Assembly (NCBI RefSeq): GCF_004762035.2
Contig: NZ_SIJK02000020.1
Span: 16,266 to 80,265, forward strand
Length of the DNA stretch: 64,000 nt
DNA from: Candidatus Chloroploca mongolica
GTDB lineage: Bacteria; Chloroflexota; Chloroflexia; Chloroflexales; Chloroflexaceae
Direction of reading: 5' to 3'
Made by a program: the position numbers and the translations under genes. Under the pieces are notes generated by a model that worked only from the letters and a program-made list of their open reading frames with translations, was not told the DNA's origin and searched no databases. This document shows, piece by piece, positions 16,868 to 33,403 of the stretch (positions are counted from its first letter, which is position 1; each line of letters begins with the position of its first letter).

Positions 16868-16888
16868 ACAGGCACTCCTTGATAAGCT

Positions 16889-17411: not shown

Positions 17412-17852
17412 TTATGCTTGCGCTTGATTGCGCTGAAAGCGAGAAATACGCTGGGTAAGGTCAAGTATAATATCTTGAATGGCAGCCAAATCTTGGTTGC
17501 TGACAAATGGTGCTAGTTCAGCACGTATTTCTTGCATATCTGGACTATAATAAAACATGAGCGTCGCTACATCGTTTTCATATAAGCCAACTCGTGCAAA
17601 ATCACCTTGTCGATAGAGTGAGGGAAGGGCATATAACTTCAGAAGAAGCAGGCCTTTTACGGTCGCTGAGGTAATTGTTCGCTCAAAAAACGGCTGTGGG
17701 GTCGTATTTTTCTGATCGAGCAGACTGAACAAGTTATTGACTGATTGGAGCAGGTCTTCCATAGGTATTGGGCTGCCTTGCCACTGTTGGGCATGAAACA
17801 GACGCGCATGTTGGACAACCTTGCCAATATGGACACGTGTTTGTGTTGGCAT
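17412..17852 (-). CDS. Hypothetical helical protein
   Basis: 146 residues, not recognised. It is predicted mostly helical, without membrane segments or Cys motifs. Segments such as MEDLLQSVNNLFSLLDQ and the C-terminal LAAIQDIILDLTQRISRFQ have heptad-like Leu/Ile spacing. Base composition is visibly more AT-rich than that of its neighbours, which may indicate acquisition by transfer. ATG 17852 follows GGCGGGAACT-type sequence on the minus strand, a weak ribosome site. No conserved neighbour helps. Confidence 0.6.
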   Translation of the reverse strand: MPTQTRVHIGKVVQHARLFHAQQWQGSPIPMEDLLQSVNNLFSLLDQKNTTPQPFFERTITSATVKGLLLLKLYALPSLYRQGDFARVGLYENDVATLMFYYSPDMQEIRAELAPFVSNQDLAAIQDIILDLTQRISRFQRNQAQA

Positions 17853-18017
17853 AATAGTTCCCGCCCCGCTTGATGTGCCCGGTTTTTGCGTTTCGCAGAA
17901 CGTCTAGGGTAGCTTATTTTAGCGCATCTCAAGGCGTCATACAAGCGAACCACTGTGGATGCGGAATTCGGCTTTAGCCGTAAGCTGTTGCATAATCACC
18001 TCGCCTCGCGTGCGCTG

Positions 18018-18824
18018 TCAATCGTAGACTGTCCACGGATCTGCTCGGACACGTGCGTCGACCGCTTCAGCGTCTTGCCCAATGATTACGCGCCAGTCGC
18101 CGTTGCTAACTGCGTTGAGGATCACCTCCGCTGCCTGTTCGCTGGACACGGGCTGATAGTCGGCGAACAGCGCGTTGAGTGCACGGCGCCACGATCGTGG
18201 AGGCGATGGCATTCCGGTGCGCACATGTCCTGGCATGACCAGCACCGCAGAGATATGGGGAGCGTGGGCGCGGAAGTCAACGAGAAGCGACTCGGTAAAA
18301 CCCCGAACCGCGAACTTTGCCGATGAGTAGGCGGTATGTGGCGACTTCGCCCCCAAGCTGGCCCACATCCCGCTCACTGAAGAGGTGTTGACAACGACAC
18401 CCTGATCGGCTGCAATGAGCATCGGAAGAAATGCTCGCGTGCAATAGTACGTGCCGAACCAGGATACCGCAAATGTCCGCTCCCACTCGTCGCGCTGCCC
18501 GACAACAAACGAGCGACCACCCACCACGCCAGCGTTGTTGAAGAGCAAGTGGATCGCGTCACACGCGTGCTCACTAGCGACTTCCTTCACGAGCCGACCA
18601 ACCGCTTTCTCATCAGACACGTCATGCACATGTGTGGTCACCCGGACTTGAGGGTTACTGGCCCGAGCGTGCCGAGCTGCAGCCTCCAGTTTCTCGCGAT
18701 CGATGTCGCAGACTGCTACATGCGTGCCTCTGCGCACGAGCTGAACCAGAAGCTCATGGCCGATACCGGACGCGCCGCCTGTCAGCACTGCAATGCGGTT
18801 TGCGAACTTTGTGAACGCAGCCAT
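18018..18824 (-). CDS. Short-chain dehydrogenase/reductase
   Basis: 268 residues, classical SDR length. The nucleotide-binding motif is TGGASGIG (residues 15-22), followed by an acidic CDID that suggests NAD(H) preference, NNAG in strand 4, catalytic Ser in NTSSVSG, and the YSSAK pair (Tyr and Lys). PGHVRTGM follows, as in classical SDRs. The substrate is unknown; an alcohol or ketone oxidoreduction in the cytoplasm is expected. It stands alone: the upstream 70 nt separate it from a decayed Uma2 gene. Confidence 0.9.
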   Translation of the reverse strand: MAAFTKFANRIAVLTGGASGIGHELLVQLVRRGTHVAVCDIDREKLEAAARHARASNPQVRVTTHVHDVSDEKAVGRLVKEVASEHACDAIHLLFNNAGVVGGRSFVVGQRDEWERTFAVSWFGTYYCTRAFLPMLIAADQGVVVNTSSVSGMWASLGAKSPHTAYSSAKFAVRGFTESLLVDFRAHAPHISAVLVMPGHVRTGMPSPPRSWRRALNALFADYQPVSSEQAAEVILNAVSNGDWRVIIGQDAEAVDARVRADPWTVYD

Positions 18825-18892
18825 CTCAAACGTGCTCCTCTATTCGTTGCCCGACCCTGATGATCATATGGCGTCGCTCATAAGGATTGGCT

Positions 18893-19066
18893 TTAGGCCG
18901 GCAGGATAAAAGGATTCTTTGGGTCAGGAAAAAGATCGTTCACCGCCATACGCCAATGAGGGACAGCTGGTTCAGCCTCGGCAATTTCCCCATCAACCAA
19001 TTCAGCCTTTGCGTTCTCTGGCAGGTGATACAAATCTTCAATTGTTGCGGTGCTACGAGGACGCAT
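18893..19066 (-). pseudogene. Truncated Uma2-family (DUF820) gene remnant
   Basis: 57 codons from ATG 19066, which follows GAAAGGAGAAGGT, a strong ribosome site. The start RPRSTATIEDLYHLPENAKA plus ELVDGEI is the conserved N-terminus of Uma2-family PD-(D/E)XK nuclease-like proteins, which are about 190 residues long. After AEAEPAVPHWRMAV the sequence no longer fits, and it stops at 18893. I infer an internally deleted copy. Uma2 genes are commonly multicopy in Cyanobacteria and Chloroflexi. A promoter-like segment precedes it (19096-19124). Confidence 0.65.
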
Positions 19067-19095
19067 ACCTTCTCCTTTCGTATCACGTTGCCACC

Positions 19096-19124
19096 ATTGT
19101 ACGTAAAAGGCACGCCAAGAGCAA
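19096..19124 (-). promoter_or_regulatory. Promoter of the Uma2 remnant
   Basis: On the minus strand TTGCTC (19124-19119) and TACAAT (19101-19096) are separated by exactly 17 nt. The spacing and boxes fit a sigma-70-type promoter, and transcription would start about 20 nt before the ribosome site of the remnant. The segment is repeated upstream of bchG. Confidence 0.55.
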
Positions 19125-19404
19125 ACAAGGGTGCGCTGACATTCAGCCCTACGCTGATATTCTAGGAACGAGGCGCGGCTGCGCAATTGAAACGATCCAT
19201 CGTGATCCATGCGCTTAACGAAATCCAAATGTGTTCGGCCCGATAAGCGGGTATAGCCCAAATGTCACTTCCTGTACATTTATGCTATGAGGAATCACCG
19301 GAGCGTACAGCCTGGCCAATCCTGGCATGTGTGCCTTTGAGCGGAGCTTACGTCCGGCCCTTTTCGTAGCGCAACTCATCGTAATGCCGGGTAGTCCTAA
19401 TGGT

Positions 19405-19410
19405 TATAAT
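19405..19410 (+). promoter_or_regulatory. Possible -10 box for the 113-residue gene
   Basis: TATAAT 33 nt upstream of the ATG at 19443. The -35 position (about 19382-19387, TAATGC) is poor. GGAGGT at 19431-19436 is a clear ribosome site. Confidence 0.35.
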
Positions 19411-19442
19411 CATCTCATAGTCACAGTTCTGGAGGTAATCGT

Positions 19443-19784
19443 ATGGCAGATGCACAAAGCATAGATACCGCAGCACGGAAGAACGATGATCTGGTTGATG
19501 TGACGGAAGCCTTTAGCAAAGGTCTGGCGCAGATGGGGGTGTTGGCAGTGTCGTGGCCGTTTTACTTTCTCCCTGCGAAGGAACGGGATGACGCGATCGC
19601 CACCACAACCCGGCTCTTCACCTCCGTTGGCGAATTGCACCTGAATCTCGTTCGTAACGCACTCCGTAGCCTTGGTGATGTGGTGCGCGAGGTGAGCAAG
19701 CCAGTTGATGCGCCAATGGCTACGACACCCCATCGAACCACGACCAAAGTACCGATCGAGACGGCACCGTCTGCAAAGCGCTAA
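19443..19784 (+). CDS. Small hypothetical protein
   Basis: 113 residues from an ATG preceded by GGAGGT, so translation is well supported. The sequence begins MADAQSIDTAARKNDDLVDV, has a central hydrophobic segment (MGVLAVSWPFYFLPAKERDDA), a helical part (LFTSVGELHLNLVRNALRSLGDVV) and a Thr/Pro-rich basic tail. It has a phasin-like feel (helix, then low-complexity tail), but I do not recognise the family. It is followed by a terminator-like hairpin and stands alone, between a decayed Uma2 gene and the phytochrome operon. Confidence 0.65.
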   Translation: MADAQSIDTAARKNDDLVDVTEAFSKGLAQMGVLAVSWPFYFLPAKERDDAIATTTRLFTSVGELHLNLVRNALRSLGDVVREVSKPVDAPMATTPHRTTTKVPIETAPSAKR

Positions 19785-19833
19785 CGGTGCCAATACGGCG
19801 GTTGAGGAACGGGCTTCGCCACCAGATCAACAG

Positions 19834-19864
19834 ACGGCGCGGGTTCCTCTGGATCCCGCGCCGT
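19834..19864 (+). terminator. Hairpin after the 113-residue gene
   Basis: ACGGCGCGGG (19834-19843) and CCCGCGCCGT (19855-19864) form a perfect 10-bp GC stem with an 11-nt loop, followed by TCTTGACT. The T-run is weak. Confidence 0.55.
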
Positions 19865-20194
19865 TCTTGACTGCCTTGCCTGAGCAGATAGCCCCGCACG
19901 TTATCTTGCGCCGATTCTACAACAGGGTCGCCGGTGTGATACGCTGCGTGAAAAGGACACTCCTCTGCTTTTGGCGCTCACCACTAGGGGTATAATGGCC
20001 TATCAACCGTCCGTGGAATTCGCCCCACTGCCGAATGAAGCCACGCCCACGCAAGACCAGTCAGGTCTGTCCCGCCCGTTACGGTTTGCGGCCACCTCGG
20101 TTAAACAGTTTGCGCCAGGGATGCGAGCGACCATCAGCGTAGCGGGCCACGCCAGCAACCGCTTGACGGGCTCGCAGGAGGTCATCATCGTATT
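19865..20194 (+). other. Upstream region of the phytochrome operon
   Basis: No supported gene. TATAAT at 19991-19996, with TTGGCG 14 nt upstream at 19971-19976, is a possible promoter whose transcript would begin near 20003, about 190 nt before the first start codon. A 60-codon open frame inside this leader begins within the -10 box and is not annotated. GGAGGTCATC at 20177-20186 is the ribosome site of the response regulator. Confidence 0.45.
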
Positions 20195-20890
20195 ATGAGT
20201 GCCCGGCTGCTCCTGGCTGACGATGAACTGCAGATCGGTCGCCTGCTGAAGAGCGTGCTCAGTGCAGAGGGCTACCTCTTGCAGGTTGCCACCGATGGGC
20301 AGACCGCCCTTGACCTCGCGGCAAAGTGGCGGCCCGACCTCATCCTGCTCGAGTTGCGCTTGCCGGTCATCGAAGGACGTGACGTGTGCCGCCGGATTCG
20401 CGACTGGTCCCAGGTGCCGATCATCGTGCTGACCGCGTGTGACGACGAGGATGAAAAAGTTGCGCTGCTCGACCTCGGTGCCGACGACTACATCACGAAG
20501 CCGTTCAGCGTGCGTGAGCTCCTGGCTCGGATTCGCGTCGCGCTCCGCCATGGGACGCAGATGCAGCGCGACGGGGGCTCGGTGGTGACCTTTGGCAGCT
20601 TGCAGATCGACCGTTCACGCCGCCTGGTGACCTACGAGGGGCAGGAAATCCGCTTGACCCCCACTGAGTACAACCTGCTTGTGCTGCTCAGCGGTCATGC
20701 CGGCAAAGTATTGACCCACCGCATGATCCTGCGCAGCATCTGGGGGCCGCACTCTGACCATGACTTGAACACGCTGCGCGTCTTCGTCACGCAGCTTCGC
20801 CGCAAGATCGAGGCGGACCCCGCTCACCCACTGTTGATCACCACTGAGCCAGGCGTAGGCTACCGGTTCCGCCCACCTGATCGGCAGTAA
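20195..20890 (+). CDS. OmpR/PhoB-type response regulator with Glu at the phospho-acceptor site
   Basis: 231 residues. The receiver domain (1-120) has the acidic pocket ADDE (8-11), Thr in LTA and Lys in TKPF, but the phospho-acceptor strand reads LILLELRLP: Glu53 (GAG at 20351-20353) stands where the family has Asp. Glu can mimic phosphorylation, so constitutive activity is possible. The C-terminal winged helix (from about residue 130, LTPTEYNLLVLLSGHAGKV, TLRVFVTQLRRKIE) is a normal DNA-binding domain closest to KdpE-like regulators. It opens the heme oxygenase/phytochrome operon and may regulate it or photosynthesis genes. Confidence 0.92.
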   Translation: MSARLLLADDELQIGRLLKSVLSAEGYLLQVATDGQTALDLAAKWRPDLILLELRLPVIEGRDVCRRIRDWSQVPIIVLTACDDEDEKVALLDLGADDYITKPFSVRELLARIRVALRHGTQMQRDGGSVVTFGSLQIDRSRRLVTYEGQEIRLTPTEYNLLVLLSGHAGKVLTHRMILRSIWGPHSDHDLNTLRVFVTQLRRKIEADPAHPLLITTEPGVGYRFRPPDRQ

Positions 20891-20896
20891 TTTTTC

Positions 20897-20935
20897 ACCT
20901 GTGTTATACTTCACAGGTAAGGTACTGGCCTTACC
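20897..20935 (+). promoter_or_regulatory. Two mutually exclusive hairpins between regulator and heme oxygenase genes
   Basis: ACCTGTG (20897-20903) pairs with CACAGGT (20912-20918). GGTAAGG (20916-20922) pairs with CCTTACC (20929-20935). The stems share three bases, so only one can form at a time, as in attenuators. This may simply be chance in a 62-nt spacer. Confidence 0.3.
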
Positions 20936-20952
20936 GTTTCGCATGAGGCTGT

Positions 20953-21519
20953 ATGATCCTGCAACGGTTGAAGCACGAAACCCAGAGCTATCATGACCAG
21001 ATGGAAGTGATTGTCGATCTGCCAGCCAGGCTTCGCTCCCGCGAGGCGTACTGCGCAGTATTGGTGCGCTTCTACGGTTTCTACGCTCCTGTCGAGGCAG
21101 CCCTGGATCGGCTCGATGGCCTCGCGCACGTCCTGCCCGACATCACGGTGCGCCGGAAGACGCCGCTCATCGCGTGCGACCTGGCCGCCCTCGGACTCTC
21201 AACGCACGACCTCCCATGGTGTGCTGAACTTCCTGCGCTGCCTGACGTGGCGCATGCCCTCGGGTGCCTCTATGTGCTTGAAGGGGCGACCCTGGGAGGG
21301 CAACTGATCGCACGCCAACTCGCAGCCGGGCCAGGTGTGACGTCAGACCGGGGTGGGGCGTTCTTCCACAGCTACGGCAAGGAAACGGGATCAATGTGGC
21401 GTAGCTTCGGCGCAGGTCTCGCCGAGTACGCGACGACGCCCGAGTGCGAAGCTACCATCATCGGCGCAGCCCAGCAGACGTTCCGCGCACTTGAGCATTG
21501 GCTTGCTGGGAAGGGGTAA
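20953..21519 (+). CDS. bphO: Heme oxygenase (biliverdin-producing)
   Basis: 188 residues. The N-terminal LKHETQSYHDQMEV carries the proximal His of the HemO/BphO family, and the segment ALGCLYVLEGATLGGQLIA is the distal-helix Gly-rich motif (GATLGG). The enzyme opens heme to biliverdin with release of CO and iron. It is encoded one nucleotide before the bacteriophytochrome start, the standard arrangement for supplying biliverdin chromophore. No other bilin reductase is nearby, so biliverdin is the likely end product. Confidence 0.93.
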   Translation: MILQRLKHETQSYHDQMEVIVDLPARLRSREAYCAVLVRFYGFYAPVEAALDRLDGLAHVLPDITVRRKTPLIACDLAALGLSTHDLPWCAELPALPDVAHALGCLYVLEGATLGGQLIARQLAAGPGVTSDRGGAFFHSYGKETGSMWRSFGAGLAEYATTPECEATIIGAAQQTFRALEHWLAGKG

Positions 21520-21520
21520 C

Positions 21521-23833
21521 ATGTCCCAAGAGTCCGATTTCAGCATCGACCTGACTAGCTGTGATCGCGAGCCGATCCATATCCCCGGCTCCATCCAGCC
21601 CCATGGGGTGCTCTTTGCGCTCACTGAACCCGACCTGACGGTCGTTCAGTCCAGCGCCAATACGTTTGCGTTTCTGGGTCGTCACCCGCACGAGTTGCTC
21701 GGTCAGCCGGTGAGCACGTTGCTTGGGGACGAGCAGACCGCTTACCTCCGCAAGACTCTGGCAAGCGAGCAGGTCGAAGAGAACCCGCTCTACACTTTCA
21801 CCCTGACGCTCAGCGGCGTCGAGCAGCACTTCGACGTGATCAGCCACCGCACAGGCGGCATGCTCATCCTAGAGCTTGAGCCCTCGACGCAGGGCGACCA
21901 GTCGGCGGCCCTACGCGTGTACCGCATGGTCAAGGGCATCGTGGCCGCGTGCCAGCGAACCGCCACGGTGCGCGCGTTTGCCCAGACCCTGGCCGGGTCG
22001 GTTCGCAAGCTGACCGGGTTCGACCGGGTGATGGTCTATCAGTTCCAGAGCGACGGAACTGGCATCGTCATCGCCGAGGAGAAGCGTGACGACTTTGAGA
22101 CGTACCTCGATCTTCGTTACCCCGCCTCAGATATTCCGCGACAGGCGCGGGCGCTCTACCTGCGCAACTGGCTCCGCCTCATCCCCGATGTTGCGTACCA
22201 GCCCGTCCCGATGCTGGCAGCCGCCCCCGGCCATCCGAGCGTCCCGCTCGATATGAGTTTCGCTGCGCTGCGGAGCGTCTCGCCTATTCATATCGAATAT
22301 CTTATGAATATGGAGGTGCAGGCGTCGATGTCGATCTCGCTGATCAAGAACGATCAGCTCTGGGGTCTCATTGCGTGTCACCATCACACTGGGCCGCATT
22401 ACCTGCCCTATGATATCCGCGCCGCGTGCGAGTTCCTGGGCCACATGGTGTCGCTACAGATTGGCGAGAAGGAGGCTGCCGAAGACGCAGCCTATACGAT
22501 TGCGCTGCAGGGCGTCCAGGCCGAACTGGTGCAACACATGAGCATGGCCAACGATGTCGTGGCCGGTCTGACGAGCTTCAAGCCCAACTTGATGCAGTTC
22601 GTCGAGGCCGACGGGGTCGCCGTCTGTCTGGAGGGTCAGTGCGTGCTGCTCGGTGAAACCCCGCCCGAGTCGGCGGTGCGGCAGCTCACCAACTGGCTCG
22701 CCGAGGAGATCGCTGACAGCGTTTTTGCGACCGAAGCCCTGCCCGAACATTATCCGCCTATCACGCCATTTGCGGCGACGGCGAGCGGCCTGCTCGCGGT
22801 GCGCCTGGCCCGCTCGCGGCCCAACTACCTGCTCTGGTTCCGCCCAGAGGTGATCCGCTCGGTCAGATGGGGAGGCAATCCCGAGAAGCCGGTAGAGGTG
22901 ACTGAGGGTGTAACCCGGCTGAGTCCGCGCAAGTCGTTCGAGGTCTGGAAGGAGACGGTGACCAGGACCGCCCTGCCGTGGCGCACGTGCGAAGTCACGG
23001 CCGCCCGCGACCTGCGGCGCGCCATCATTGACCTGGTGCTGTATAAGACTGAGGAGCTCTCTCGTCTCAACGATGAGCTTACCCGTAGCAACGTCGAGCT
23101 CGACTCGTTCGCCTATGTGGCCTCCCACGACCTCAAGGAGCCTCTGCGCGGCCTGCACAACTATGCGCACTTCCTGATCGAGGACTATGGTGAGCAACTC
23201 GATGATGAGGGCAAAGACAAGCTCACAACCCTGATTCGCCTGACCCAGCGCATGGAGACGCTGATCGACTCGCTGCTCCACTACTCGCGGGTTGGCCGAC
23301 TTGAGCTGACCTGGGTCGATGTGGATCTCAATGCTGAACTAGCCGACGTGGTGGCCCTGCTAGAGCCGCGCCTTCATGAGAGCGATGTCGAGTTGCGCAT
23401 TCCGCAATCCCTACCCCAGGTACACGCTGACCAGGCCCGTGTCCGCGAGGTTTTTAGCAATCTGATCACGAACGCGATCAAGTACAACGACAACCCAGAG
23501 AAGTGGGTCGAGATCGGTTACCAGCCGCTCCGGGGTGACGATGGCGCAGAGCAGTATATGTTTTTTGTGCGCGACAACGGCATCGGGATCCCAGAGGAGC
23601 ACCAGGAGGCGATCTTTCGTATCTTCAAGCGCCTGCACGGGCGTGACGAGTACGGAGGTGGGGTCGGGGCAGGGTTGACGATTGTCAAGAAGATTATCGA
23701 GCGCCACGGTGGCACCATCTGGCTTACCTCGCAGCCCGACAAGGGCAGCACGTTCTGGTTCACGCTGGGCAAAGTTGACACAGATCTACAGCAGATGCGG
23801 CGATCTGCTCCAAAGGCGGAGACGCGGGAATGA
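21521..23833 (+). CDS. bphP: Bacteriophytochrome histidine kinase
   Basis: 770 residues from ATG 21521. The N-terminal segment contains Cys14 (LTSCDREPIHIPGSIQPHG), the biliverdin-attachment Cys of bacteriophytochromes, followed by PAS, GAF (PASDIP at 201-206, HHHTGPHYLPYD at 287-298) and PHY domains, with the tongue motif PRKSFEVW near 469-476. The histidine kinase core has H-box ASHDLKEPLRG (His536), then the ATPase with N-box NLITNAIKYN and G-boxes DNGIGIP and GGGVGAGLTIVKK. It senses red/far-red light. Its stop overlaps the start of a single-domain response regulator (ATGA), its likely phosphotransfer partner. Confidence 0.97.
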   Translation: MSQESDFSIDLTSCDREPIHIPGSIQPHGVLFALTEPDLTVVQSSANTFAFLGRHPHELLGQPVSTLLGDEQTAYLRKTLASEQVEENPLYTFTLTLSGVEQHFDVISHRTGGMLILELEPSTQGDQSAALRVYRMVKGIVAACQRTATVRAFAQTLAGSVRKLTGFDRVMVYQFQSDGTGIVIAEEKRDDFETYLDLRYPASDIPRQARALYLRNWLRLIPDVAYQPVPMLAAAPGHPSVPLDMSFAALRSVSPIHIEYLMNMEVQASMSISLIKNDQLWGLIACHHHTGPHYLPYDIRAACEFLGHMVSLQIGEKEAAEDAAYTIALQGVQAELVQHMSMANDVVAGLTSFKPNLMQFVEADGVAVCLEGQCVLLGETPPESAVRQLTNWLAEEIADSVFATEALPEHYPPITPFAATASGLLAVRLARSRPNYLLWFRPEVIRSVRWGGNPEKPVEVTEGVTRLSPRKSFEVWKETVTRTALPWRTCEVTAARDLRRAIIDLVLYKTEELSRLNDELTRSNVELDSFAYVASHDLKEPLRGLHNYAHFLIEDYGEQLDDEGKDKLTTLIRLTQRMETLIDSLLHYSRVGRLELTWVDVDLNAELADVVALLEPRLHESDVELRIPQSLPQVHADQARVREVFSNLITNAIKYNDNPEKWVEIGYQPLRGDDGAEQYMFFVRDNGIGIPEEHQEAIFRIFKRLHGRDEYGGGVGAGLTIVKKIIERHGGTIWLTSQPDKGSTFWFTLGKVDTDLQQMRRSAPKAETRE

Positions 23834-24267
23834 GTGATTGGCACGTCTTGTTCATCGAAGATAGCGACGAAGATGTGGCAGCAACCGTGCGGGGACTCAG
23901 GCGCGAGGGTCTCCAGCTTGTCTTTCACCGCTGCCCTACCGGGGATGAGGCGCTCGACTACCTTTATCAGCGCGGGCGGTACGCCGATAGCGCCAAAGCG
24001 CCTCGCCCCAACCTGATCCTGCTCGACCTGAACCTGCCAGGCACGGATGGACGGGCGCTGCTCGCCGTGATCAAGGACGACGAGGATCTGAAGTCGATCC
24101 CGGTCGTCGTTCTGACAACGTCGAGCAACCCGAAGGACATCGCTGCCTGTTACCGGCGCGGTGCCAACAGTTACCAGGTCAAGCCAGTGGATTATGGGCA
24201 CTTCAAGCAGGCGTTGCAGACCACGGTTGACTACTGGTTTCAAACGGCGATCTTGCCAAACGCGTAG
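23830..24267 (+). CDS. Single-domain response regulator (Rcp1-like)
   Basis: 145 residues consisting only of a receiver domain. It has acidic residues EDSDED near 10-15, phospho-acceptor Asp in LILLDLNLPGTDG, Thr/Ser in LTTSSNPKD, and Lys in VKPVDY. The long insertion between helix 2 and strand 3 (YLYQRGRYADSAKAPRPN) is typical of phytochrome-associated CheY-like regulators such as Rcp1. Overlap with bphP argues for a cognate pair. It lacks an output domain, so the signal must pass to another protein. Confidence 0.93.
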   Translation: MSDWHVLFIEDSDEDVAATVRGLRREGLQLVFHRCPTGDEALDYLYQRGRYADSAKAPRPNLILLDLNLPGTDGRALLAVIKDDEDLKSIPVVVLTTSSNPKDIAACYRRGANSYQVKPVDYGHFKQALQTTVDYWFQTAILPNA

Positions 24268-24731
24268 GCGCGAACACTCGCCCCTGCTGCTTGCCGAGGC
24301 TGCACCGTGCTCGCGGGGCGGCTTCGCGTCTAGCCGCGCCTTGTGCGCTGTAGCCACAGGGCGCGAGGCGCGGCTTGGCCATGCCGATCGCTGGCGTTTG
24401 CGACTCGCCTGTTAACGAAACCCAAACGGCACAGGCTCTCCGTCATTACTCCGCCCAAATGTCAGCGGTGATACATTGCTATTGTCACCGGACTGCGCGC
24501 AGCAAGCCTGCCTTGAGTCCCCGACGCTCGAACCGCTGACCACCGCAAGCCCGTCCCTTCCCACGAGGTGTGCGCACTCGCCGTAACCGAAGGGGCCACA
24601 CGACCTGGCGATCAGCAGCCCGCGCAGTCGCAAGTAGTCGGGACAACGGTGCGTGCGATCCTGCTTCACTGACCTCGTAAGCGATCCGCGCCACAGCGTC
24701 TACACCAGTATTGGCATGGAAGGAGTGAGTC
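24268..24731. other. Intergenic region, no gene found
   Basis: About 460 nt of GC-rich sequence with no coding signal in any frame that starts with a ribosome site. It contains loosely palindromic GC blocks (GCGCCTTGTGCG, GCGCGAGGCGCGGC, 24330-24390) and a weak inverted repeat GGTGA/TCACC near 24467-24490. AAGGAG at 24719-24724 belongs to the next gene. Transcription of the phytochrome operon probably ends in the first 120 nt. Confidence 0.5.
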
Positions 24732-25238
24732 GTGACCACAGAGGCTAACTATCGTCGCGACGAGTGGGATCTGATCCTTGGGGCACCGGGCCTGATCGCC
24801 CTGGTCATCGTCCACTCGGAACAGTGTAGTCCCGGAGAGGTTCATCGGAAGCTACGGGCCGTGATTGCAGCTATTGACGAAACGAGGGAGCAGGGATCGC
24901 AGAGCGAGTTGATTCAGACGGTGATGGACGCAATGCGGCGGGGACAGTCCCCTCTTTGGCCCGTAGAGTGTCCGTATGATCTCGAGGCGGTTCACGAGTG
25001 GGCTCTGGAAGGCTGCCATCAGGTTGCCATCTTGCTTGCCCAGAAAACACCAGAGGCCGAAGGTCAGGCATACGCAAACTGGCTTCTCGACATTGCACAG
25101 CGTGTTGTGGCGGTTCCCCGAGACAAGGGGCTGCAAGATTCCATCTCTGAGGCACGTGGTGATCTGCCGCACATTGTGCTGGAGGTGCTTGCTGACGCGC
25201 TAGACGTGGGTTACAAAGCCGAGGCACGCGAGGGCTGA
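24732..25238 (+). CDS. Hypothetical helical protein, paralogue of the gene next to bchG
   Basis: 168 residues from GTG 24732, which is preceded by AAGGAG. It aligns along its whole length with the 160-residue protein encoded at 27614-28096: TEANYRRDEWDLILGAP against TEADFTPDEWNLLLSAP, and later EGCHQVAILLAQKTPEAEGQ followed by AYANWLLDIAQRVVAVP. It is predicted all-helical, without membrane segments or metal sites. The function is unknown. It sits between the phytochrome operon and the bacteriochlorophyll operon, on the opposite strand from the latter. Confidence 0.75.
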   Translation: MTTEANYRRDEWDLILGAPGLIALVIVHSEQCSPGEVHRKLRAVIAAIDETREQGSQSELIQTVMDAMRRGQSPLWPVECPYDLEAVHEWALEGCHQVAILLAQKTPEAEGQAYANWLLDIAQRVVAVPRDKGLQDSISEARGDLPHIVLEVLADALDVGYKAEAREG

Positions 25239-25262
25239 GCGCGATCACCAGAGGGCTGTGCT

Positions 25263-25475
25263 GTACGTTTTCTGCGTTGCTGCCGAAGGGAGTGCCGGCT
25301 TCAGCCGGCTAAAGCCGGCACTCCCCCGCTGGGCTTATGCATATTCAGTCTTACATCGGGCCTATGGTAGTGCCGACTTCAGTCGGCTTCTTACTCAGCC
25401 GACTGAAGTCGGCACTACCTGCTGTAAGATGTAAGAACCATCAGCCGGCTAAAGCCGGCACTCCCCCGCTGGTAG
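25263..25475. repeat. Cluster of AGTGCCGG-family palindromic repeats
   Basis: Three hairpins in tandem: GGAGTGCCGGCTTCAGCCGG with CCGGCACTCC at 25288-25325; AGTGCCGACTTCAGTCGGC with its complement at 25369-25417; and a half copy, GCCGGCTAAAGCCGGC, at 25443-25458. The middle part (25343-25438) matches the interior of the element at 32155-32252 in inverted orientation. It lies between convergent genes and may also act as a terminator. Confidence 0.75.
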
Positions 25476-25478
25476 CCG

Positions 25479-26135
25479 TCATAGCCGGACAAACTGCAGG
25501 TGCCTGACCAGTTCCATCTCAGAGCACTCGCCTTCGATGATCAGGTGCTCGTTGATAACCGTTGTAGGTGTCTCTTTCACCGCGTAATGCTCGGCCAACT
25601 GGGGAAAGGCTCGTACTTCGATCGCCTCGGCGCTAATGAGCGGGCTTGTTCGCGCCAGCCTGTAGGCAAGCAGCATCGCTGCAGGAGAGGCGTGGTCGGC
25701 GGCTGTGACGAAGACCTGGATATGTAACGGTTGGTATATTCGATCGAGAAAAGCGTGCGTTTTCAGCTGAACGCTGAGTGGGGCTGCCTTGCCGGTGATA
25801 AGCACCGTCTCTAGCAGAGCGCTGAAGATATAACCGCTCGGCAGGCCAAAAAAGCGTAAGCGAAAATCGGCGCTTTCACTATCACATACGATAATTGCCG
25901 GTGCTTTGCCGATTCCAACGCCCAAGGCGAAGGCAGCATCAGTCGCCAGGTCGTGAACCTCAAGGTTGAGGCGAGGGTGCAGGCTGACCAGTTCGTGCAG
26001 TAACTCAGCAACAAGCGAGCTATACTGATCAAAAGGAGAGTGGGTAAAGAGCAAGAGATGCACATCATGCCGCAAGGGTTCCAGGAGCAAGCGCACTGAT
26101 CGGCGGTCTTTTTCGCGGAGGAATGTTAGGCTCAT
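25479..26135 (-). CDS. Protein-disulfide-oxidoreductase-like protein lacking both CxxC sites
   Basis: 218 residues with two thioredoxin folds, as in archaeal/bacterial PDO and glutaredoxin-like domain proteins. Conserved fold markers are FRLRFFGLPSGYIFSALLE between the domains and cis-Pro loops KAPAIIV and ETPTTVI. The first active site, usually C-x-Y-C, is D-Q-Y-S (residues 36-39). The second, usually CPYC, is D-H-A-S (147-150). The only Cys residues lie elsewhere (VCDS, GECS). It cannot do thiol exchange in the usual way and may be a chaperone or binding subunit. It is the last gene of the bchG operon, 51 nt after the radical SAM gene. Confidence 0.88.
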   Translation of the reverse strand: MSLTFLREKDRRSVRLLLEPLRHDVHLLLFTHSPFDQYSSLVAELLHELVSLHPRLNLEVHDLATDAAFALGVGIGKAPAIIVCDSESADFRLRFFGLPSGYIFSALLETVLITGKAAPLSVQLKTHAFLDRIYQPLHIQVFVTAADHASPAAMLLAYRLARTSPLISAEAIEVRAFPQLAEHYAVKETPTTVINEHLIIEGECSEMELVRHLQFVRL

Positions 26136-26186
26136 ACATCTTGACCTGGCTCAACCGACCGACTCGTGCGCTTCCTGGCGACGATC

Positions 26187-27572
26187 CTATAGAAAGGTTT
26201 CTGGCGTGAGGCGCTGCGTGAAGTGGTGCATGGCGATATTGACGAGCCAGACCCAGTCGGGCCTTCGCCCGGCCATGCGTTTCCAGATATTGGGCCACGA
26301 GTAGACGGCACGCTGAAGCTTGATGAAGTTGCGCAGGAACTCATCACGGCCCATCCCGGCTGGCTCGTACATGTAGTGGAAGGTGTCGTACTTGTCCCAG
26401 TCGTGCTGCACAACCCGCGGACGCATCTCTTCGTACCACGGCGTGCCAGGGAAGGGCGTGGCGATCGTGAAGACGGGAAACTCAATGCGATTCTGCACAA
26501 TGAAGTCGTAGGTATGCTGGAAGCTCGCCGCAGTGTCTGTATCGAAACCGAAGATGAAGTAGCCCTGAAGGGCAATGCCCTGTTTATGGACGTTCTTCAC
26601 AATCTCTTCGTAGTTACTTACTCGGTTCGAGCCCTTGTGGACATACTTGATCGTCTCTGGGGAAACAGACTCGAAGCCAACGTTGAGCATTTCGCAGCCG
26701 GCCTTCTTCGCCAACTCGGCGACGGCTGGCCGCTCTAGGAAGTTCATCGAGATATTGGCGTTCCACCCCACACCCATACCCACCATAGCGTGGAAGAGCT
26801 CGTCGGCGAAGGCTGGCTTAAAGCTGATATTGTCGTCCATGAAGGAGAGATGGATGTTGGCCTTGCCTACCTCGTGCTGGCGATGTTTGATCTCGTCGAT
26901 CACCCGGTCAGACTCTCGCACGCGAAAGCTTTTGCCGTAGATACGAGGGGTGCAGCAAAAATTGCAGCCTACCGGGCAGCCTTTTGTTGCCAGGAGCGGA
27001 AGGCGAAAAGAGTAGCGTTTGCTGTTCGGCGAACGGCGAGCAAAGGAGAACTCTGTCCGCCCCATCGTGCTCATCGGCTTCCATCCAGCCTCTGCCGACG
27101 GCCGGTAGAGCGGCTTCAGGTCACCGTCGTAGATGTCACGTGCGAGTTCCTCGTAGACTGACTCCAACTCGCCAAAGACTACGGCGTCGCAGTACTGGCT
27201 TGCCTCCTCGATCATCATCGTCGGGTGGACCCCGCCGAGGATGACCTGCTTGCCCTGGGCGCGCGCACGAGCGGCGATCGCATAGACCCGCCGGGCGTTC
27301 AGCGTGCGCGACGTCATCGCCACGACGTCATAGCGTGAAAAATCCTCGGGCACCGCATCATCAATGCGCTCATCAACAAAGTCGACGTCGAAGTGCTGCT
27401 GGACCAGCGTAGCGACCATCAAGAGGTTGAGTGGCATGCTCACTTTGCCTGAGTCGACCATCAGCGGTGTACTACTCTTGGGCTGGATCAGCAGCCAGCG
27501 CTTCCGTTGCGCCTGGGGAATCAGCAGAGGCGGGGTGGTCTCACTCAGTTCGGGCGTGATCAACTCGGTCAT
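26187..27572 (-). CDS. BchE-like radical SAM protein with B12-binding-type N-terminal domain
   Basis: 461 residues. Residues 25-155 form a B12-binding-fold domain (GGVHPTMM, VFGELESVYEELA) that lacks the DxHxxG cobalamin ligand motif. The radical SAM site is C-x3-C-x2-C (Cys199, 203, 206 in GCPVGCNFC), followed by FMDDNISF and GFESVSPETIKYV. The family includes BchE cyclase, the BchQ/BchR methylases and hopanoid HpnP. It is shorter than typical BchE, so I do not call it that. Its position two genes downstream of bchG suggests a step in bacteriochlorophyll modification, such as methylation or oxidation. Reaction inferred only from context. Confidence 0.85.
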   Translation of the reverse strand: MTELITPELSETTPPLLIPQAQRKRWLLIQPKSSTPLMVDSGKVSMPLNLLMVATLVQQHFDVDFVDERIDDAVPEDFSRYDVVAMTSRTLNARRVYAIAARARAQGKQVILGGVHPTMMIEEASQYCDAVVFGELESVYEELARDIYDGDLKPLYRPSAEAGWKPMSTMGRTEFSFARRSPNSKRYSFRLPLLATKGCPVGCNFCCTPRIYGKSFRVRESDRVIDEIKHRQHEVGKANIHLSFMDDNISFKPAFADELFHAMVGMGVGWNANISMNFLERPAVAELAKKAGCEMLNVGFESVSPETIKYVHKGSNRVSNYEEIVKNVHKQGIALQGYFIFGFDTDTAASFQHTYDFIVQNRIEFPVFTIATPFPGTPWYEEMRPRVVQHDWDKYDTFHYMYEPAGMGRDEFLRNFIKLQRAVYSWPNIWKRMAGRRPDWVWLVNIAMHHFTQRLTPETFL

Positions 27573-27613
27573 AGGTCGCTGCTCCTCATTTCATTCAGGT
27601 AAACAGGAGAGTG

Positions 27614-28096
27614 TCAGCAAATGCTTAGCGTGATGGCCAGATCCTCAAGGGCCATTCTGGCGTGTTCTGCGGTCTGTGTCATGCGCTGTCCCGAGGGAAA
27701 AGCCTCATCGGGCACCGCCGCCACGGCCTCTCCGATGGCGAGGAGCCAGCTCGCGTAGGCGACAGCCTCGCTGTTGGGCGCCCGCCGAGAGAGAATCGCG
27801 GCAGCCTGACGGCACTGTTCCAGCGAGAGGCGACAAATCGCCATACGATCCTCGGGGAAATGCTCTGGGTAGCGCGGTCGCTGACCGGCGTGTAGCGCCG
27901 CACGTATCGCGACTATCAGCTTGCTCGAAGTGTCCGGCATCGCCGTCTCTAGAATGGCCCAGATCCCGGCCATCATCTTTTGGTATGCCACCAGGCGGCT
28001 GTAACGATCGGACTCGACGATATAGAGCGCGGCGAAGGCAGGGGCCGACAAGAGGAGGTTCCACTCATCAGGGGTGAAATCGGCCTCGGTGCTCAC
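27614..28096 (-). CDS. Hypothetical helical protein encoded directly after bchG
   Basis: 160 residues from GTG 28096. I chose this start because AGAGGA lies just upstream and because it aligns exactly with the start of the paralogue at 24732; an in-frame TTG at 28120 would overlap the bchG stop. Conserved features shared with the paralogue are TxDEWxLLxxAP, IVxS(E/D), EQCRQAAAILSRR and AYASWLLAIGEAVAAVP. It is all-helical, with no cofactor motif. Tight linkage to bchG (17 nt) implies a role in pigment synthesis, membrane insertion or its regulation, but no function is known to me. Confidence 0.75.
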   Translation of the reverse strand: MSTEADFTPDEWNLLLSAPAFAALYIVESDRYSRLVAYQKMMAGIWAILETAMPDTSSKLIVAIRAALHAGQRPRYPEHFPEDRMAICRLSLEQCRQAAAILSRRAPNSEAVAYASWLLAIGEAVAAVPDEAFPSGQRMTQTAEHARMALEDLAITLSIC

Positions 28097-28112
28097 CGCA
28101 TTCCTCTCTTGC

Positions 28113-29057
28113 TTAGCCAAAGTAGCCGCCGACGATTAAGGCCGAGACGAACTGGATTAGGAGAATGAAGGGGTTGCTTGCCACAATGTAGCGCAGGAAA
28201 TTCTTGTGCGTGGGCTCCCGATAGAGCCGAACCTGGCTGTTCAGGGGGACAATCAGAGCCAGCGCGGCAATGGCCGCCGCCCACAGATGCCCGCTCATCA
28301 GGGCCAGGGCCAGGAGCATAAGCTCGCAGATGCCGATGATCGCGTAGGACACCAGCAGGGTGCGCCGCGCACCAAAGGCCACCGTCATTGATTGCAGACC
28401 GTGCTTGCGATCACCCTCGATGCTCTTGATGTCGTTGAGAAAGAGCAACCCCGCGGCCAGCGCACTGTTGATGATGGCCAGGGTGAAACTTGGCCAGGTC
28501 AGTGGGGCGAAGATCATATGGCCTGCCATCCAGCTCAAGAAAACATAGCCAAAGCCCACGGCAGGGGGGCCGAGCCAGTAATGCTGCTTGAGCTTGACTG
28601 GAGGGACACTGTACGCCGCCGCGAGGATGAGGCTCATGGCTGCCAGCACGGGCATCCAGAGACTCTCCATTGCCAGGAACAGTGATACTGCTGCCGTCGC
28701 CAGGCCCAGGCCTATCCAGTTGCCACGGGCTGCACGCAGGGTAATGCGCTGCGAGGGAATGGGCCGGGAGGGGTCGTTGATCGCATCCAGCTCGCGGTCG
28801 AAATAGTCGTTGATGCTCTGGCTGAAGCCCGTACCGAAAGGGCCACACATCAGCGCCGTCAATACCACCAGGAGAATATCCCGCGCATCATTCACATGAA
28901 AACCGGGGTCGCCTTGACCGGCAGCAAGGGCGCCGCAGATGACCATAGTGATCGGGGTAATCCATGTCACCGGATCGGCAAGCTCAAGGTGGGCGCGAAG
29001 GCGCTGACGAAAAGGTGCTCTTTCTGCGGGGATCGGTCGTGCCCAATGTTCGGCCAT
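28113..29057 (-). CDS. bchG: (Bacterio)chlorophyll synthase
   Basis: 314 residues from ATG 29057 (GAAGG upstream). It is a UbiA-superfamily prenyltransferase with the first Asp-rich motif NDYFDRELDAINDPSRPIPS and a second, LNDIKSIEGDRKHG, both matching the BchG/ChlG subgroup rather than quinone or heme O synthases. Eight or nine hydrophobic helices span the protein. It esterifies (bacterio)chlorophyllide with geranylgeranyl or phytyl diphosphate at the membrane. It leads a four-gene operon with a hypothetical protein, a BchE-like radical SAM protein and a redox-dead PDO homologue. Whether it serves BChl a or a chlorosome BChl (the BchK role) cannot be settled here; the N-terminal motifs favour bchG. 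Confidence 0.9.
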   Translation of the reverse strand: MAEHWARPIPAERAPFRQRLRAHLELADPVTWITPITMVICGALAAGQGDPGFHVNDARDILLVVLTALMCGPFGTGFSQSINDYFDRELDAINDPSRPIPSQRITLRAARGNWIGLGLATAAVSLFLAMESLWMPVLAAMSLILAAAYSVPPVKLKQHYWLGPPAVGFGYVFLSWMAGHMIFAPLTWPSFTLAIINSALAAGLLFLNDIKSIEGDRKHGLQSMTVAFGARRTLLVSYAIIGICELMLLALALMSGHLWAAAIAALALIVPLNSQVRLYREPTHKNFLRYIVASNPFILLIQFVSALIVGGYFG

Positions 29058-29179
29058 ACTCGTGCCTTCGTAAACCCGTGCTGCTGCTGACGGCAGTCCC
29101 GGAAGCACTGTTACTGTAGCACTGACCGCATGTGGGAAACATTAAGCGCGGGCCGAAACCCATAAGACTACCATGAAGG

Positions 29180-29210
29180 AACCCTTGGGGTACAGCGCCG
29201 CCAAGGGTTA
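29180..29210 (-). promoter_or_regulatory. Hairpin in the bchG leader
   Basis: AACCCTTGG (29182-29190) and CCAAGGGTT (29202-29210) form a 9-bp stem about 125 nt upstream of the bchG start, within the predicted leader from the 29239-29267 promoter. It could be a regulatory stem, but no known riboswitch was recognised. Confidence 0.35.
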
Positions 29211-29238
29211 GCGCACCTACGCTAAAAACGTTGCGCCT

Positions 29239-29267
29239 TTTGTACGTAAGAAGCACGCCAGGAGCAA
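29239..29267 (-). promoter_or_regulatory. Probable promoter of the bchG operon
   Basis: On the minus strand TTGCTC (29267-29262) and TACAAA (29244-29239) are 17 nt apart. The 29-bp segment matches the promoter of the Uma2 remnant (19096-19124) at 25 of 29 positions, and the similarity extends a few bases on both sides. Transcription would start near 29232 and give a leader of about 175 nt. Confidence 0.5.
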
Positions 29268-29273
29268 ACAATT

Positions 29274-29320
29274 AAAAATCCGCTCGACCAGACCGGTAAG
29301 GTCTGGTTGAGCGGATTTTT
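29274..29320 (-). terminator. Rho-independent terminator after the CtaA-CtaB fusion gene
   Basis: Arms AAAAATCCGCTCGACCAGACC (29274-29294) and its complement at 29300-29320 form a 21-bp stem with one G-U pair and a 5-nt loop. On the minus strand the stem ends in a T-tract. It isolates the heme A gene from the bchG promoter. Confidence 0.85.
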
Positions 29321-29340
29321 TAAGGCAACCATCGGTGAAA

Positions 29341-31083
29341 CTACCAGGCCATCACCCGGTCAATGACCATGACGACAAACAAAAGGGCGAGATAGAGCAG
29401 GCTGTACTTGTAGAGGCCCCAGATGCTGGCTTGATCGCCGCGCTTCCAGACGTGCCAGGCTGACTGCAGAAAGAGTGCGCCGAGCAGCGCGGCCCCGCCA
29501 AAGTAGATCCACCCCATCGCTCCGATTGCCGTGAGCAAGAGGCTGAGGGCCACCAGGATGACTGAATAGACTAGGATCTGCCAGCGAGTCTCGCCTTCAC
29601 CGGCGACGACGGGCAGCATCGGCACCCCTGCCCGCGCATAGTCCTTTTGCTTGACCAGCGCCAGCGCCCAGAAATGGGGCGGCGTCCAGTAAAAGACAAT
29701 CGCAAAGAGCAGCAGGGCGGCCACGCTCAACTCACCTGTGACGGCAGTCCAGCCAACCAGGGGTGGCAGCGCACCGGCACCGCCACCGATCACAATATTT
29801 TGCCAGGTGCTCCGCTTGAGCCACTGGGTATAGAACCAGGCATAGTAGAAGATGCCGAGGGTCGAGACCAGCGCTGCCAGCGGGGTGGTAAAGACGAGCA
29901 TCACCACAACCGAGAGCGCACTCAAGACGAACCCGAAGATCATCGCATTGCGCCGCGAGATCCGTCCTGAAGGGACTGGACGCCGACTGGTACGTCCCAT
30001 ATTGATATCGATATCGCTATCGAACGCGCAGTTGATGGCCCCGGCCCCGCCTGCCGCCAGATAGCCGCCGATCATCGTCCAGAAGACTAACCAGAGCGAT
30101 GGTGAGCCTGCCTCGGTGAGATACATTGCCCCTGCCGTGGTCACCAGCAGCAACGAGATGACTTTGGGTTTGGTGAGGCTGAGATAATCTTTCCAGAGTG
30201 GCGGTGCTTCATCCGTAGCTGGCCGTGCGGCAACCACCGGCATCGTTGCGGGCAACGGGCGGCGCAGCGCGAGCACAGCCAGGGCGAGCGTGGCCCCCCA
30301 GACAAGTGCGGCGAGGCCCACGCCCATGCCAGCGGCGGCTGGGGGCAACAGGATCAGCGGTATCTCAATGAGGATCAAGAGCAGCACCGCCGCAGCGACG
30401 CCAATAAGCAGGGAGTCGCCTCGTCGCGAACGCCACGTCTGCCAGAACGTCCCGCTGGCAAGCATTCCGGCCATCGCCAGGGCACCCCCGGCATTGATGG
30501 GCAATGCTGAAGCGGCACTGGCGGCTGGGTCACCAAGAATACGCGCACTCAGCGCCAGGGCAAGCACCCCCGTCGCGCCTGCCGTCCACCAGGCGAGGCC
30601 GCTCAAGCGCCGCGCCTCACGCGTAGCCCGACCACCCGCACGCATTGCAGGCAGAGGCTGGAGCAGTGCCGCCGTCCCGATGGCTTGCGCGCCAAGCATC
30701 AGCAGCGCGAGCCCCAGGTGAGCTAGATTGATTGCCTCATAGAGCCCCAGGGCGACCATGATGCCACCGGCAGCGACCTCGACCAGCCCGAAGAGCGGCG
30801 CGATCAGCAGGGGAAGCCGCACCCAACGCTCAAGGTCGGGACGTCGCCAGACCATTGCGGCAATAAACAGCGCCACAACCATCGCGAATGCAACAAGGAT
30901 GCGGTGCCCAAACGCGACCCAGAGGGCCGGCGTAGCCGGGCCAGTGAACAACTCGGCACAGAGCGGCCAGCCGGTACAGACGGCGGCACTTTCGGTGGCA
31001 CTAACCAGGCCACCCGACACGATTGCTACCAACGTCAACAATGAACCGATGACCGTGCTTCGACGTAACAACTTATCTGGCAT
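29341..31083 (-). CDS. Fused heme A synthase (CtaA/Cox15) and protoheme IX farnesyltransferase (CtaB)
   Basis: 580 residues. Residues 1-285 are a CtaA-type domain with a Cys pair (VCTGWPLC) and heme-ligand His candidates in FGHRILVAF and NLAHLGLALL. Residues 295-580 are a complete CtaB domain: LTKPKVISLLLVTT, Asp-rich NCAFDSDIDINMGRTSRRP, and YWTPPHFWALALVKQKDYARAG. Together they convert protoheme to heme O and then heme A in the membrane for cytochrome oxidase. The fusion guarantees equal amounts and possibly channelling. The gene is followed by a terminator and preceded by a small membrane protein gene. In Chloroflexi such fusions are expected in species that respire aerobically in the dark. 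Confidence 0.93.
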   Translation of the reverse strand: MPDKLLRRSTVIGSLLTLVAIVSGGLVSATESAAVCTGWPLCAELFTGPATPALWVAFGHRILVAFAMVVALFIAAMVWRRPDLERWVRLPLLIAPLFGLVEVAAGGIMVALGLYEAINLAHLGLALLMLGAQAIGTAALLQPLPAMRAGGRATREARRLSGLAWWTAGATGVLALALSARILGDPAASAASALPINAGGALAMAGMLASGTFWQTWRSRRGDSLLIGVAAAVLLLILIEIPLILLPPAAAGMGVGLAALVWGATLALAVLALRRPLPATMPVVAARPATDEAPPLWKDYLSLTKPKVISLLLVTTAGAMYLTEAGSPSLWLVFWTMIGGYLAAGGAGAINCAFDSDIDINMGRTSRRPVPSGRISRRNAMIFGFVLSALSVVVMLVFTTPLAALVSTLGIFYYAWFYTQWLKRSTWQNIVIGGGAGALPPLVGWTAVTGELSVAALLLFAIVFYWTPPHFWALALVKQKDYARAGVPMLPVVAGEGETRWQILVYSVILVALSLLLTAIGAMGWIYFGGAALLGALFLQSAWHVWKRGDQASIWGLYKYSLLYLALLFVVMVIDRVMAW

Positions 31084-31100
31084 ATTGTCACCGTAGAGAA

Positions 31101-31313
31101 TTACGCGCTGAGCGCAAGAAATGAGCCGTACAACAGCACCCCGGTCAACACTGCCGTCGCCACTGTCCAGGCCAGATCACTGGCCCCGTGGCTTTGTGGG
31201 ACACCGACGGGCAGCTCAGTGGTTTGCCGACGTAGCCGCCAGGCGGCGTGGATCAGCAAGGCCTGTCCAACGCAACAAACGGCCACGATGGCCCAGAAGA
31301 GAAGAGATTGCAT
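31101..31313 (-). CDS. Small two-helix membrane protein
   Basis: 70 residues if translation starts at ATG 31313 (MQSLLFWAIVAVCCVGQALL); an in-frame extension to 31370 is basic and less likely. Two hydrophobic helices (residues 3-20 and about 48-65) flank a short polar loop. It lies 17 nt upstream of the CtaA-CtaB fusion on the same strand, so it is probably co-translated and may be an accessory protein of heme A synthesis or oxidase assembly. I do not recognise the family. Confidence 0.6.
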   Translation of the reverse strand: MQSLLFWAIVAVCCVGQALLIHAAWRLRRQTTELPVGVPQSHGASDLAWTVATAVLTGVLLYGSFLALSA

Positions 31314-31427
31314 CAGGCTCGCTCGCTTTCTTGTTGTGCGCAATGCGCTGCGGCGACACAGCCCTACCAAGGGAAGGGGGGCAAGTTTGTGGAGTTATTC
31401 ACAAATTACAACTTTGTTGCGATTATA

Positions 31428-31478
31428 CCACATCTCAGCAAAAATGCCAGCATTGCTGGCATTTTTGCTGAGATGTGG
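31428..31478 (-). terminator. Terminator after the HdeD-like gene
   Basis: A perfect 25-bp inverted repeat, CCACATCTCAGCAAAAATGC (arm 31428-31452) with its complement at 31454-31478, around a single base. The internal run of five T/A gives a weak poly-U. It lies between the HdeD-like gene and the small membrane protein gene. Confidence 0.75.
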
Positions 31479-31497
31479 GCTTGGTTTGCGTACCGAC

Positions 31498-32031
31498 CTA
31501 CTTTCTCCCGATGAAGGCCCCAACAATCGTTATAATCCCCCCGACAAGCGCCGTGATGCCGAACACGAAGGGCAGCACCACCACGCCGGCCAGCGGTGAT
31601 GAGAGGATCAAGAAGCTCAACACGATCGTGAGCACGCCCCAGATGCCGACCCCGATGCCCCCGCCCTGGAAGGCCTGTACCACGCGGACGCCGCCCATAA
31701 AAATGCCCGTAATGCCCAGCATAATGATGTAAAAGGTCGCCACAATGACCCCACCGAGCAGCGGCTGGCTCAAGACGGCCAGGCCTGCCCAGATGCCAAT
31801 CACCCCACTGAGCAGCGTTAAGAACCAGCGTTCGCGACTACGAAACAGGCTGATCACATCCGCGATGCCCGAAATCAACCACGAGGCTCCAATGTAGAGC
31901 ACAATGAAGAGCGTTGTCAGCAGGGGTTGAAAAAGGAGCAGCAGCCCCAGGATGACATAACTAATACCGAGTACCAACACGAGCCAGAACGGAACCTTGT
32001 TTTGTTCTGCAACCGACGGCATCTTCAACAT
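31498..32031 (-). CDS. HdeD/DUF308 family membrane protein
   Basis: 177 residues with six hydrophobic helices arranged as three repeated hairpins, the HdeD/DUF308 layout. Typical segments are VLGISYVILGLLLLFQPL, GASWLISGIADVISLF and SGVIGIWAGLAVLSQPLLGG. HdeD of E. coli is linked to acid resistance at high density, but the family is broad and its molecular role unclear. It is a single gene with its own terminator downstream. Upstream DNA contains ATGCTATAGCAT, a small palindrome 11 nt before the start, which may be an operator. Confidence 0.88.
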   Translation of the reverse strand: MLKMPSVAEQNKVPFWLVLVLGISYVILGLLLLFQPLLTTLFIVLYIGASWLISGIADVISLFRSRERWFLTLLSGVIGIWAGLAVLSQPLLGGVIVATFYIIMLGITGIFMGGVRVVQAFQGGGIGVGIWGVLTIVLSFLILSSPLAGVVVLPFVFGITALVGGIITIVGAFIGRK

Positions 32032-32095
32032 CGATTTCTCCTATGCTATAGCATATACACGCTCTCGCACCTTGCTGCTCCGCTGGAAACACGCC

Positions 32096-32291
32096 TATAG
32101 CAATCCTAGACGATGGGCGTCTCAGGAGTGCCGGCTTTAGTCGGCTAATGGTTTTTAAGCATGACATCAGGGAGTGCCGACTTCAGTCGGCTGCAAGAAG
32201 CCGACTGAAGTCGGCACTCCCATAGACCCGATGTAAGCCTGAATCTTCATCAGTCAGGACTGTTGGATACAACCCAGATAGGAGTGCTCTA
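32096..32291. repeat. MITE-like element, long copy (family M1) with nested palindrome
   Basis: Ends TATAGCAATCCTA and TAGGAGTGCTCTA are inverted repeats, 11 of 13 bases complementary. Both ends match the 93-bp copy at 5210-5302. The interior carries a 20-bp-arm hairpin (GGGAGTGCCGACTTCAGTCG at 32170) of the AGTGCCGG family, as if one repeat had inserted into another. Non-coding. Confidence 0.65.
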
Positions 32292-32423
32292 GCTATGCTA
32301 GCCTTGTTTCCTGCGAAGCAAAGACTATGTCAGGCTGACTATGCTTCTATTGTAGAACCAGGGTGATTCAGTTGCACCTATGTTTAAGGATAGTTTTTCA
32401 ATTGCAATGAGGACAGGTGCTGA

Positions 32424-32816
32424 TCATTCGGGGGCGTAGCGATTCATCATGGCGTTGGCGGCCTGTTCAAAGTAGGTGCGCATGACTGAACGGGCCGGTT
32501 CGTCAATGCCCACCTCATCAATTGATGCAAGCATATGCTCAAGCCAGGCATCACGTTCAACCGGGCCAATTGGGTAGGGCGCATGCCGCATGCGCAAACG
32601 CGGATGGCCGCGGCGTTGCCCATATTCACCAGGCCCACCAAAATATTGCATCAGAAAGAGGAACTGATGCTCTTTGCCGGGTTCGAGGTCGTCTGGAAAC
32701 ATCGGACGCAACCGCGGATCGTGTTCTACGCGGGTATAGAATGCCTCAACGAGTTGACGTAAGACCTCGGCCCCGCCAAGCTGCTCGTAGATGGTTGGTG
32801 CGTTTTTTTCATTCAT
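32424..32816 (-). CDS. Truncated haemoglobin, group II type
   Basis: 130 residues, the length of 2-on-2 globins. IYEQLGGAEVLRQLVEAFY is the N-terminal A/B helix signature. The proximal His is His78 in RLRMRHAPYPIG, and Trp91 in ERDAWLEHM is the G8 Trp typical of groups II and III; together with the short E-F region this fits group II (trHbO/GlbO). Such globins bind O2 or NO and may protect against nitrosative stress or support peroxidase chemistry in the cytoplasm. It is transcribed divergently from the lipoprotein cytochrome c, with GC-rich palindromes between them. Confidence 0.93.
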   Translation of the reverse strand: MNEKNAPTIYEQLGGAEVLRQLVEAFYTRVEHDPRLRPMFPDDLEPGKEHQFLFLMQYFGGPGEYGQRRGHPRLRMRHAPYPIGPVERDAWLEHMLASIDEVGIDEPARSVMRTYFEQAANAMMNRYAPE

Positions 32817-32845
32817 ATGATCTATTATAATAGAAATCTCTGGTG

Positions 32846-32944: not shown

Positions 32945-32960
32945 CTGGAAATGGTCTTGT

Positions 32961-33332: not shown

Positions 33333-33346
33333 GAGGTTGCCGTGGT

Positions 33347-33385: not shown

Positions 33386-33403
33386 TCCACATTGTTTTTC
33401 GCT

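Follow-up and report, generated by a model that had tools for sequence, protein, structure and literature searches.

A double-thioredoxin protein without CxxC sites in a phytochrome-bchG island of Candidatus Chloroploca mongolica, and the order of cysteine loss among its relatives

What becomes of a protein disulfide oxidoreductase (PDO) once neither of its thioredoxin folds carries a CxxC site? The question is raised by a gene in a 64,000-nt stretch of Candidatus Chloroploca mongolica (NZ_SIJK02000020.1, positions 16,266-80,265 of the forward strand; hereafter the window, to which all coordinates refer), for which literature searches found no description. We favor, at a probability of about 0.5, the view that it encodes a PDO paralogue whose thiol chemistry was lost stepwise and which was kept for a thiol-independent job, likeliest binding.

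A PDO fold without site cysteines

The open reading frame starts with ATG, encodes 218 residues, and is single-copy in its genome (E <= 0.001). Its product matches TIGR02187 (protein disulfide oxidoreductase) at 153.7 bits (E 4e-45), below the equivalog cut-off of 185, its second half matches Pfam Thioredoxin_3, and its profile match to the archaeal PDO 1a8l has an E of 1.8e-69. An AlphaFold2 model based on a 56-row alignment was confident (mean pLDDT 92.1, pTM 0.89) and superposed on 1a8l with a Z of 30.8 (1.8 A over 214 residues); together with the two profile matches, this places homology beyond chance. The best structural matches were the PDO 1a8l, 2ayt (Z 30.7), 2ywm and 1j08, with AhpF domains next. 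A KaiB-like role was considered and dropped, the N-half matching KaiB at Z 8.2, a level that the search tool rates as common. A sequence-only reading of this DNA had proposed a PDO-type fold with its cis-Pro loops retained, and model and alignment bore this out: the modeled protein has the tandem double thioredoxin fold of PDOs, and at both cis-Pro positions (P79 and P190) every row of the alignment has the same residue.

As that reading had also stated, CxxC is absent from both halves, which read exactly DQYS (D36-S39, the N-site) and DHAS (D147-S150, the C-site). The protein departs from its family at 12 of 41 otherwise invariant positions, five of them within the C-site stretch 145-150, and V189, just before the cis-Pro, is also among those changed. 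Only two cysteines remain, C84 and C204; the nearest homologue, L233 (47% identity), has cysteines at window positions 61, 150 and 158, such that the two proteins have no cysteine position in common. In the model, helix 37-50 starts directly after D36, for which helix capping may account; capping is not simply applicable to D147, since this residue lies three residues ahead of the start of helix 150-163.

The window protein thus shares with PDOs (TIGR02187; 1a8l, 2ayt) both thioredoxin folds, both cis-Pro residues and its length, and differs from them in having neither CxxC pair and in its lower family score. The same double fold occurs in the N-terminal domain of AhpF (5h29 and 1zyn; Z 28.3 and 26.4), which uses only its second CxxC and in this respect resembles 19 relatives described below that have a CxxC in the second half alone; the window protein, in contrast, stands alone and has lost the C-site pair as well. 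Calsequestrin, ERp29/windbeutel and HupG/HyaE act by binding. None of these has specific sequence kinship to the window protein, and the structural match of calsequestrin reached a TM of only 0.31-0.33. They are counted, without CxxC, within the thioredoxin fold class in one published account (PMC2757866).

Order of cysteine loss

A profile search of 82 genomes of the order recovered PDO relatives at 28 places in 26 genomes: 19 lack the N-site and have CPxC, six have both pairs, two have neither pair complete, and one is a fragment (G006). The two with neither pair complete are the window gene and G030:C1399 (labeled L056, L126 or L233), and they are the only known intact members of what we term the D-type. 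Further relatives came from a GTDB scan (the best 80 of 414 relatives taken) and a class-level search of 158 genomes (E <= 1e-42). The C-site reads C..C in 82 of the 84 distinct alignment rows having both columns (seven gapped rows were set aside, and the second copy of the window's own gene was counted once with the first), the two exceptions being the window gene (D..S) and L233 (D..C, as DSAC). The N-site has been lost elsewhere too, reading N..L in two Limnochordales copies and V..G in one row.

Maximum likelihood on 83 alignment rows groups the window protein with L233 in one clade (100/99), and this clade in turn groups with the 19 N-site-less relatives (99/94); that the 19 are monophyletic to the exclusion of the pair is weakly supported (96/52). 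The stem of the pair measures 1.1 and its end branches 1.14 and 0.98, the median end branch being 0.13. Because these 19 relatives lack the N-site yet retain CPxC, the N-site was lost before the C-site. The proposal that both sites had changed in parallel from Cys to Asp/Ser is therefore refuted by the tree and the site table: the ancestor shared with these relatives no longer had its N-site cysteines. The window protein and L233 share 21 residues absent from the 19 (including D36, A145, D147, A149 and T189); in both proteins, each of the two sites hence begins with Asp. The conservation of D-x-x-S that the sequence-only reading proposed to survey holds for this first position only; a conserved D-x-x-S site is rejected, L233 differing at the last position of each site (D..G at the N-site, and D..C at the C-site, where the second Cys is kept). 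As a separate observation, four loci (L191:4084, L192:5636, L196:8442 and L197:4520; 4/4 checked) have an in-frame TGA at the position of the first C-site Cys followed by xxC, probably encoding selenocysteine; in L195 the interruption is a TAG at another place.

The gene neighborhood differs as well. An ECF sigma-70 gene adjoins all 19 N-site-less Chloroflexaceae relatives (L206-L217, L219-L221, L224, L227, L229 and L232; one cut by a contig end), followed in 18 by a zinc-finger (zf-HC2) anti-sigma gene, which suggests that these PDOs belong to a thiol-stress regulon. The same pair lies beside five CxxC-type loci (L148, L160, L189, L205 and L228, among 87 loci with flanks of unequal length), and was found neither beside the window gene (3.6 kb searched) nor beside L233 (2.7 kb). 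The window genome still has the ECF gene, as do nine further checked genomes besides its source; inspection of eight such loci showed no PDO frame next to it.

An accessory pigment operon in a phytochrome island

The gene lies in an island (Table 1) that combines a phytochrome, a heme oxygenase, two regulators and two orf168 genes with the PDO-like gene, a radical SAM gene and a second bchG. Congener G002 retains pieces of the island's left part, and the island may have been either gained in the window lineage or lost in G001 and G002. The GC profile shows no sharp edge at the island. Integration at a tRNA gene was considered and dropped, none being found in window 14000-34000, as was a plasmid origin, for which only two distant records matched (25.7% and 27.7% identity). 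A hairpin-rich dispersed repeat of about 130 bases (window 25288-25472 and 32125-32255) is present many times over in the window genome and its congeners, and a short repeat (window 15078-15290) likewise recurs at many sites in this genome and in both congeners.

Table 1. The island and its features, in window coordinates
Feature	Position	Strand	Remarks
Island absent from congeners G001 and G002, roughly 11.8 kb	17474..29245		Edges uncertain; the left one lies at 17360 to about 19130 by congener
Response regulator with DNA-binding domain	20195..20890	+	Response_reg and Trans_reg_C
Heme oxygenase	20953..21519	+	PF01126
Putative bacteriophytochrome histidine kinase	21353..23833	+	Named from sequence; true start later than listed
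Putative single-domain response regulator	23830..24267	+	Named from sequence
orf168a, convergent with PDO-like gene	24732..25238	+	Paralogue of orf168b
PDO-like gene; putatively redox-dead double-thioredoxin protein, 218 aa	25479..26135	-	D36QYS39, D147HAS150, cis-Pro P79 and P190
B12-binding radical SAM protein, 461 aa	26187..27572	-	95.4 bits against BchE (TIGR02026), cut-off 481.35; not BchE by this model
orf168b, 168 aa, paralogue of orf168a	27614..28120	-	Nothing matched in Pfam or NCBIfam (E <= 1)
Second (accessory) bacteriochlorophyll synthase BchG	28113..29108	-	TIGR01476 322 bits, cut-off 212.3

The PDO-like gene does follow bchG and the radical SAM gene, as had been read from the sequence: bchG comes first, then orf168b, the radical SAM gene and the PDO-like gene, the successive junctions being an 8-base overlap and gaps of 41 and 51 bases. 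The other BchG of the genome (G000:C94:93470-94366) is 56% identical to the island copy. For the "BchE-like" radical SAM gene, the adjacency stands and the BchE identity falls, its TIGR02026 score being far below the cut-off. Relatives of this radical SAM protein (70-80% identical) elsewhere adjoin a second radical SAM gene, and the two 168-aa paralogues, neither of which matches Pfam or NCBIfam, have relatives in 20 of 61 genomes; some of these relatives lie next to bchG or radical SAM genes. Promoter and terminator scans stayed near shuffled expectation (2 vs 1.4; 5 vs 3.0).

G013, G021, G023, G024, G030 and G035 have similar stretches that combine a regulator and bchG with a phytochrome or heme oxygenase; the six phytochrome/bchG stretches (L106-L110 and L117) gave no PDO match (E <= 1) and no radical SAM match. 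No orthologue with CxxC was found in the operon that houses the window gene. A clear D-type remnant lies next to a phytochrome in G006 (L057 9373-9567, E 1.8e-8), and a tentative one just before bchG in G030:C763 (L113 3318-3485, E 0.012; G030 is a MAG with 7% contamination); the latter carries the D-type residues A145 and A149, and with the window protein as query it reached an E of 0.097 while an unrelated locus reached 0.10. L233 has no bchG alongside within its 6-kb contig, and the two intact D-type genes have different neighbors. With two intact members, one clear remnant and one tentative one, the D-type gene has evidently been lost often. The link to pigment synthesis drawn from gene position thus fares unevenly: the position itself is that of a single genome set against six stretches without a PDO, and the two remnants speak for it. 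Operon spacing and these remnants make a tie to pigment synthesis plausible, its recurrence being thin.

Constraint after loss and possible function

We fitted a codon model (our own implementation; three site classes, 13 sequences, 218 codons) to ask whether the D-type genes evolve neutrally. Neutrality was rejected on the end branches of both the window gene (2dlnL 38.1) and L233 (23.8); the stem of the pair was indistinguishable from neutrality (0.7) and faster than the background rate (14.0). When the window branch was made neutral in simulations, none of the 12 data sets gave a statistic above 2.87, and 10 of the 12 values were negative (lowest -8.82), so the free fit sometimes stops short of its optimum. 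Synonymous sites are saturated (the window branch comes close to 10 neutral substitutions per codon, with the multiplier of the stem stuck at its upper bound of 60), which makes branch lengths unreliable; pairwise NG86 estimates gave a dN of 0.48 and a dS of 1.34. As neutrality is rejected on both end branches and not on the stem, simple decay is unlikely, and the expectation of selection rather than drift was upheld on the window's own branch. The sequences favor a changed yet maintained protein over long neutral decay, and a recent end of constraint is compatible with them.

Such a recent end, with a passenger gene in slow decay whose open frame survives by chance, is a possible if doubtful alternative. 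It would accommodate the remnants in G006 and probably G030, the gene's absence from G001 and G002, the long terminal branches, and a GC at third codon positions of 0.62, compared with 0.72-0.76 in four neighboring genes; short neutral spells, moreover, leave a frame open (at 0.1 substitutions per codon, the chance of no stop is 0.57). Over the end branch as a whole, neutrality is nonetheless rejected, at 0.69 neutral substitutions per codon (a length fitted under neutrality) only 1.9% of simulations had no stop, indels not counted, and the model and core residues are intact. That the protein is redox-active through a thiol pair at a new location, or through one active Cys, is highly improbable: C84 and C204 remain and L233 keeps C150, but the two intact members have no cysteine position in common.

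The operon spacing, the phytochrome, heme oxygenase and regulators in the same island, and the remnants beside a phytochrome and, tentatively, bchG could also point to a dedicated assembly factor of the pigment operon that binds BchG, the radical SAM protein or the phytochrome module. We consider this unlikely, given the six comparable stretches without a PDO or radical SAM gene and the wide occurrence of radical SAM relatives without a PDO-like gene. Quite speculative, too, is a more elaborate scenario in which a dismantled PDO was recruited from an ECF-sigma redox operon to a mobile phytochrome-bchG island as a thiol-free adaptor coupling light sensing to BchG or a radical SAM partner.

Most likely, we infer, the window protein is a redox-dead binding or adaptor protein. 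A PDO paralogue first lost its N-site cysteines, then, in the lineage of the window gene and L233, its C-site nucleophile, and lastly, in the window lineage, the remaining C-site Cys. The two thioredoxin-fold grooves, framed by cis-Pro, could then serve as a surface for docking or holding another protein, a client that is plausibly either another product of this accessory pigment operon or under the control of the neighboring phytochrome. The family has living representatives of each step, from the two-site enzyme, through loss of the N-site and of the C-site nucleophile, to loss of all site cysteines, in a dated series accompanied by a change of gene neighborhood. Through this series one can test the route by which a redox enzyme becomes thiol-free, as well as the capacity of a thiol-free protein to serve in pigment synthesis.
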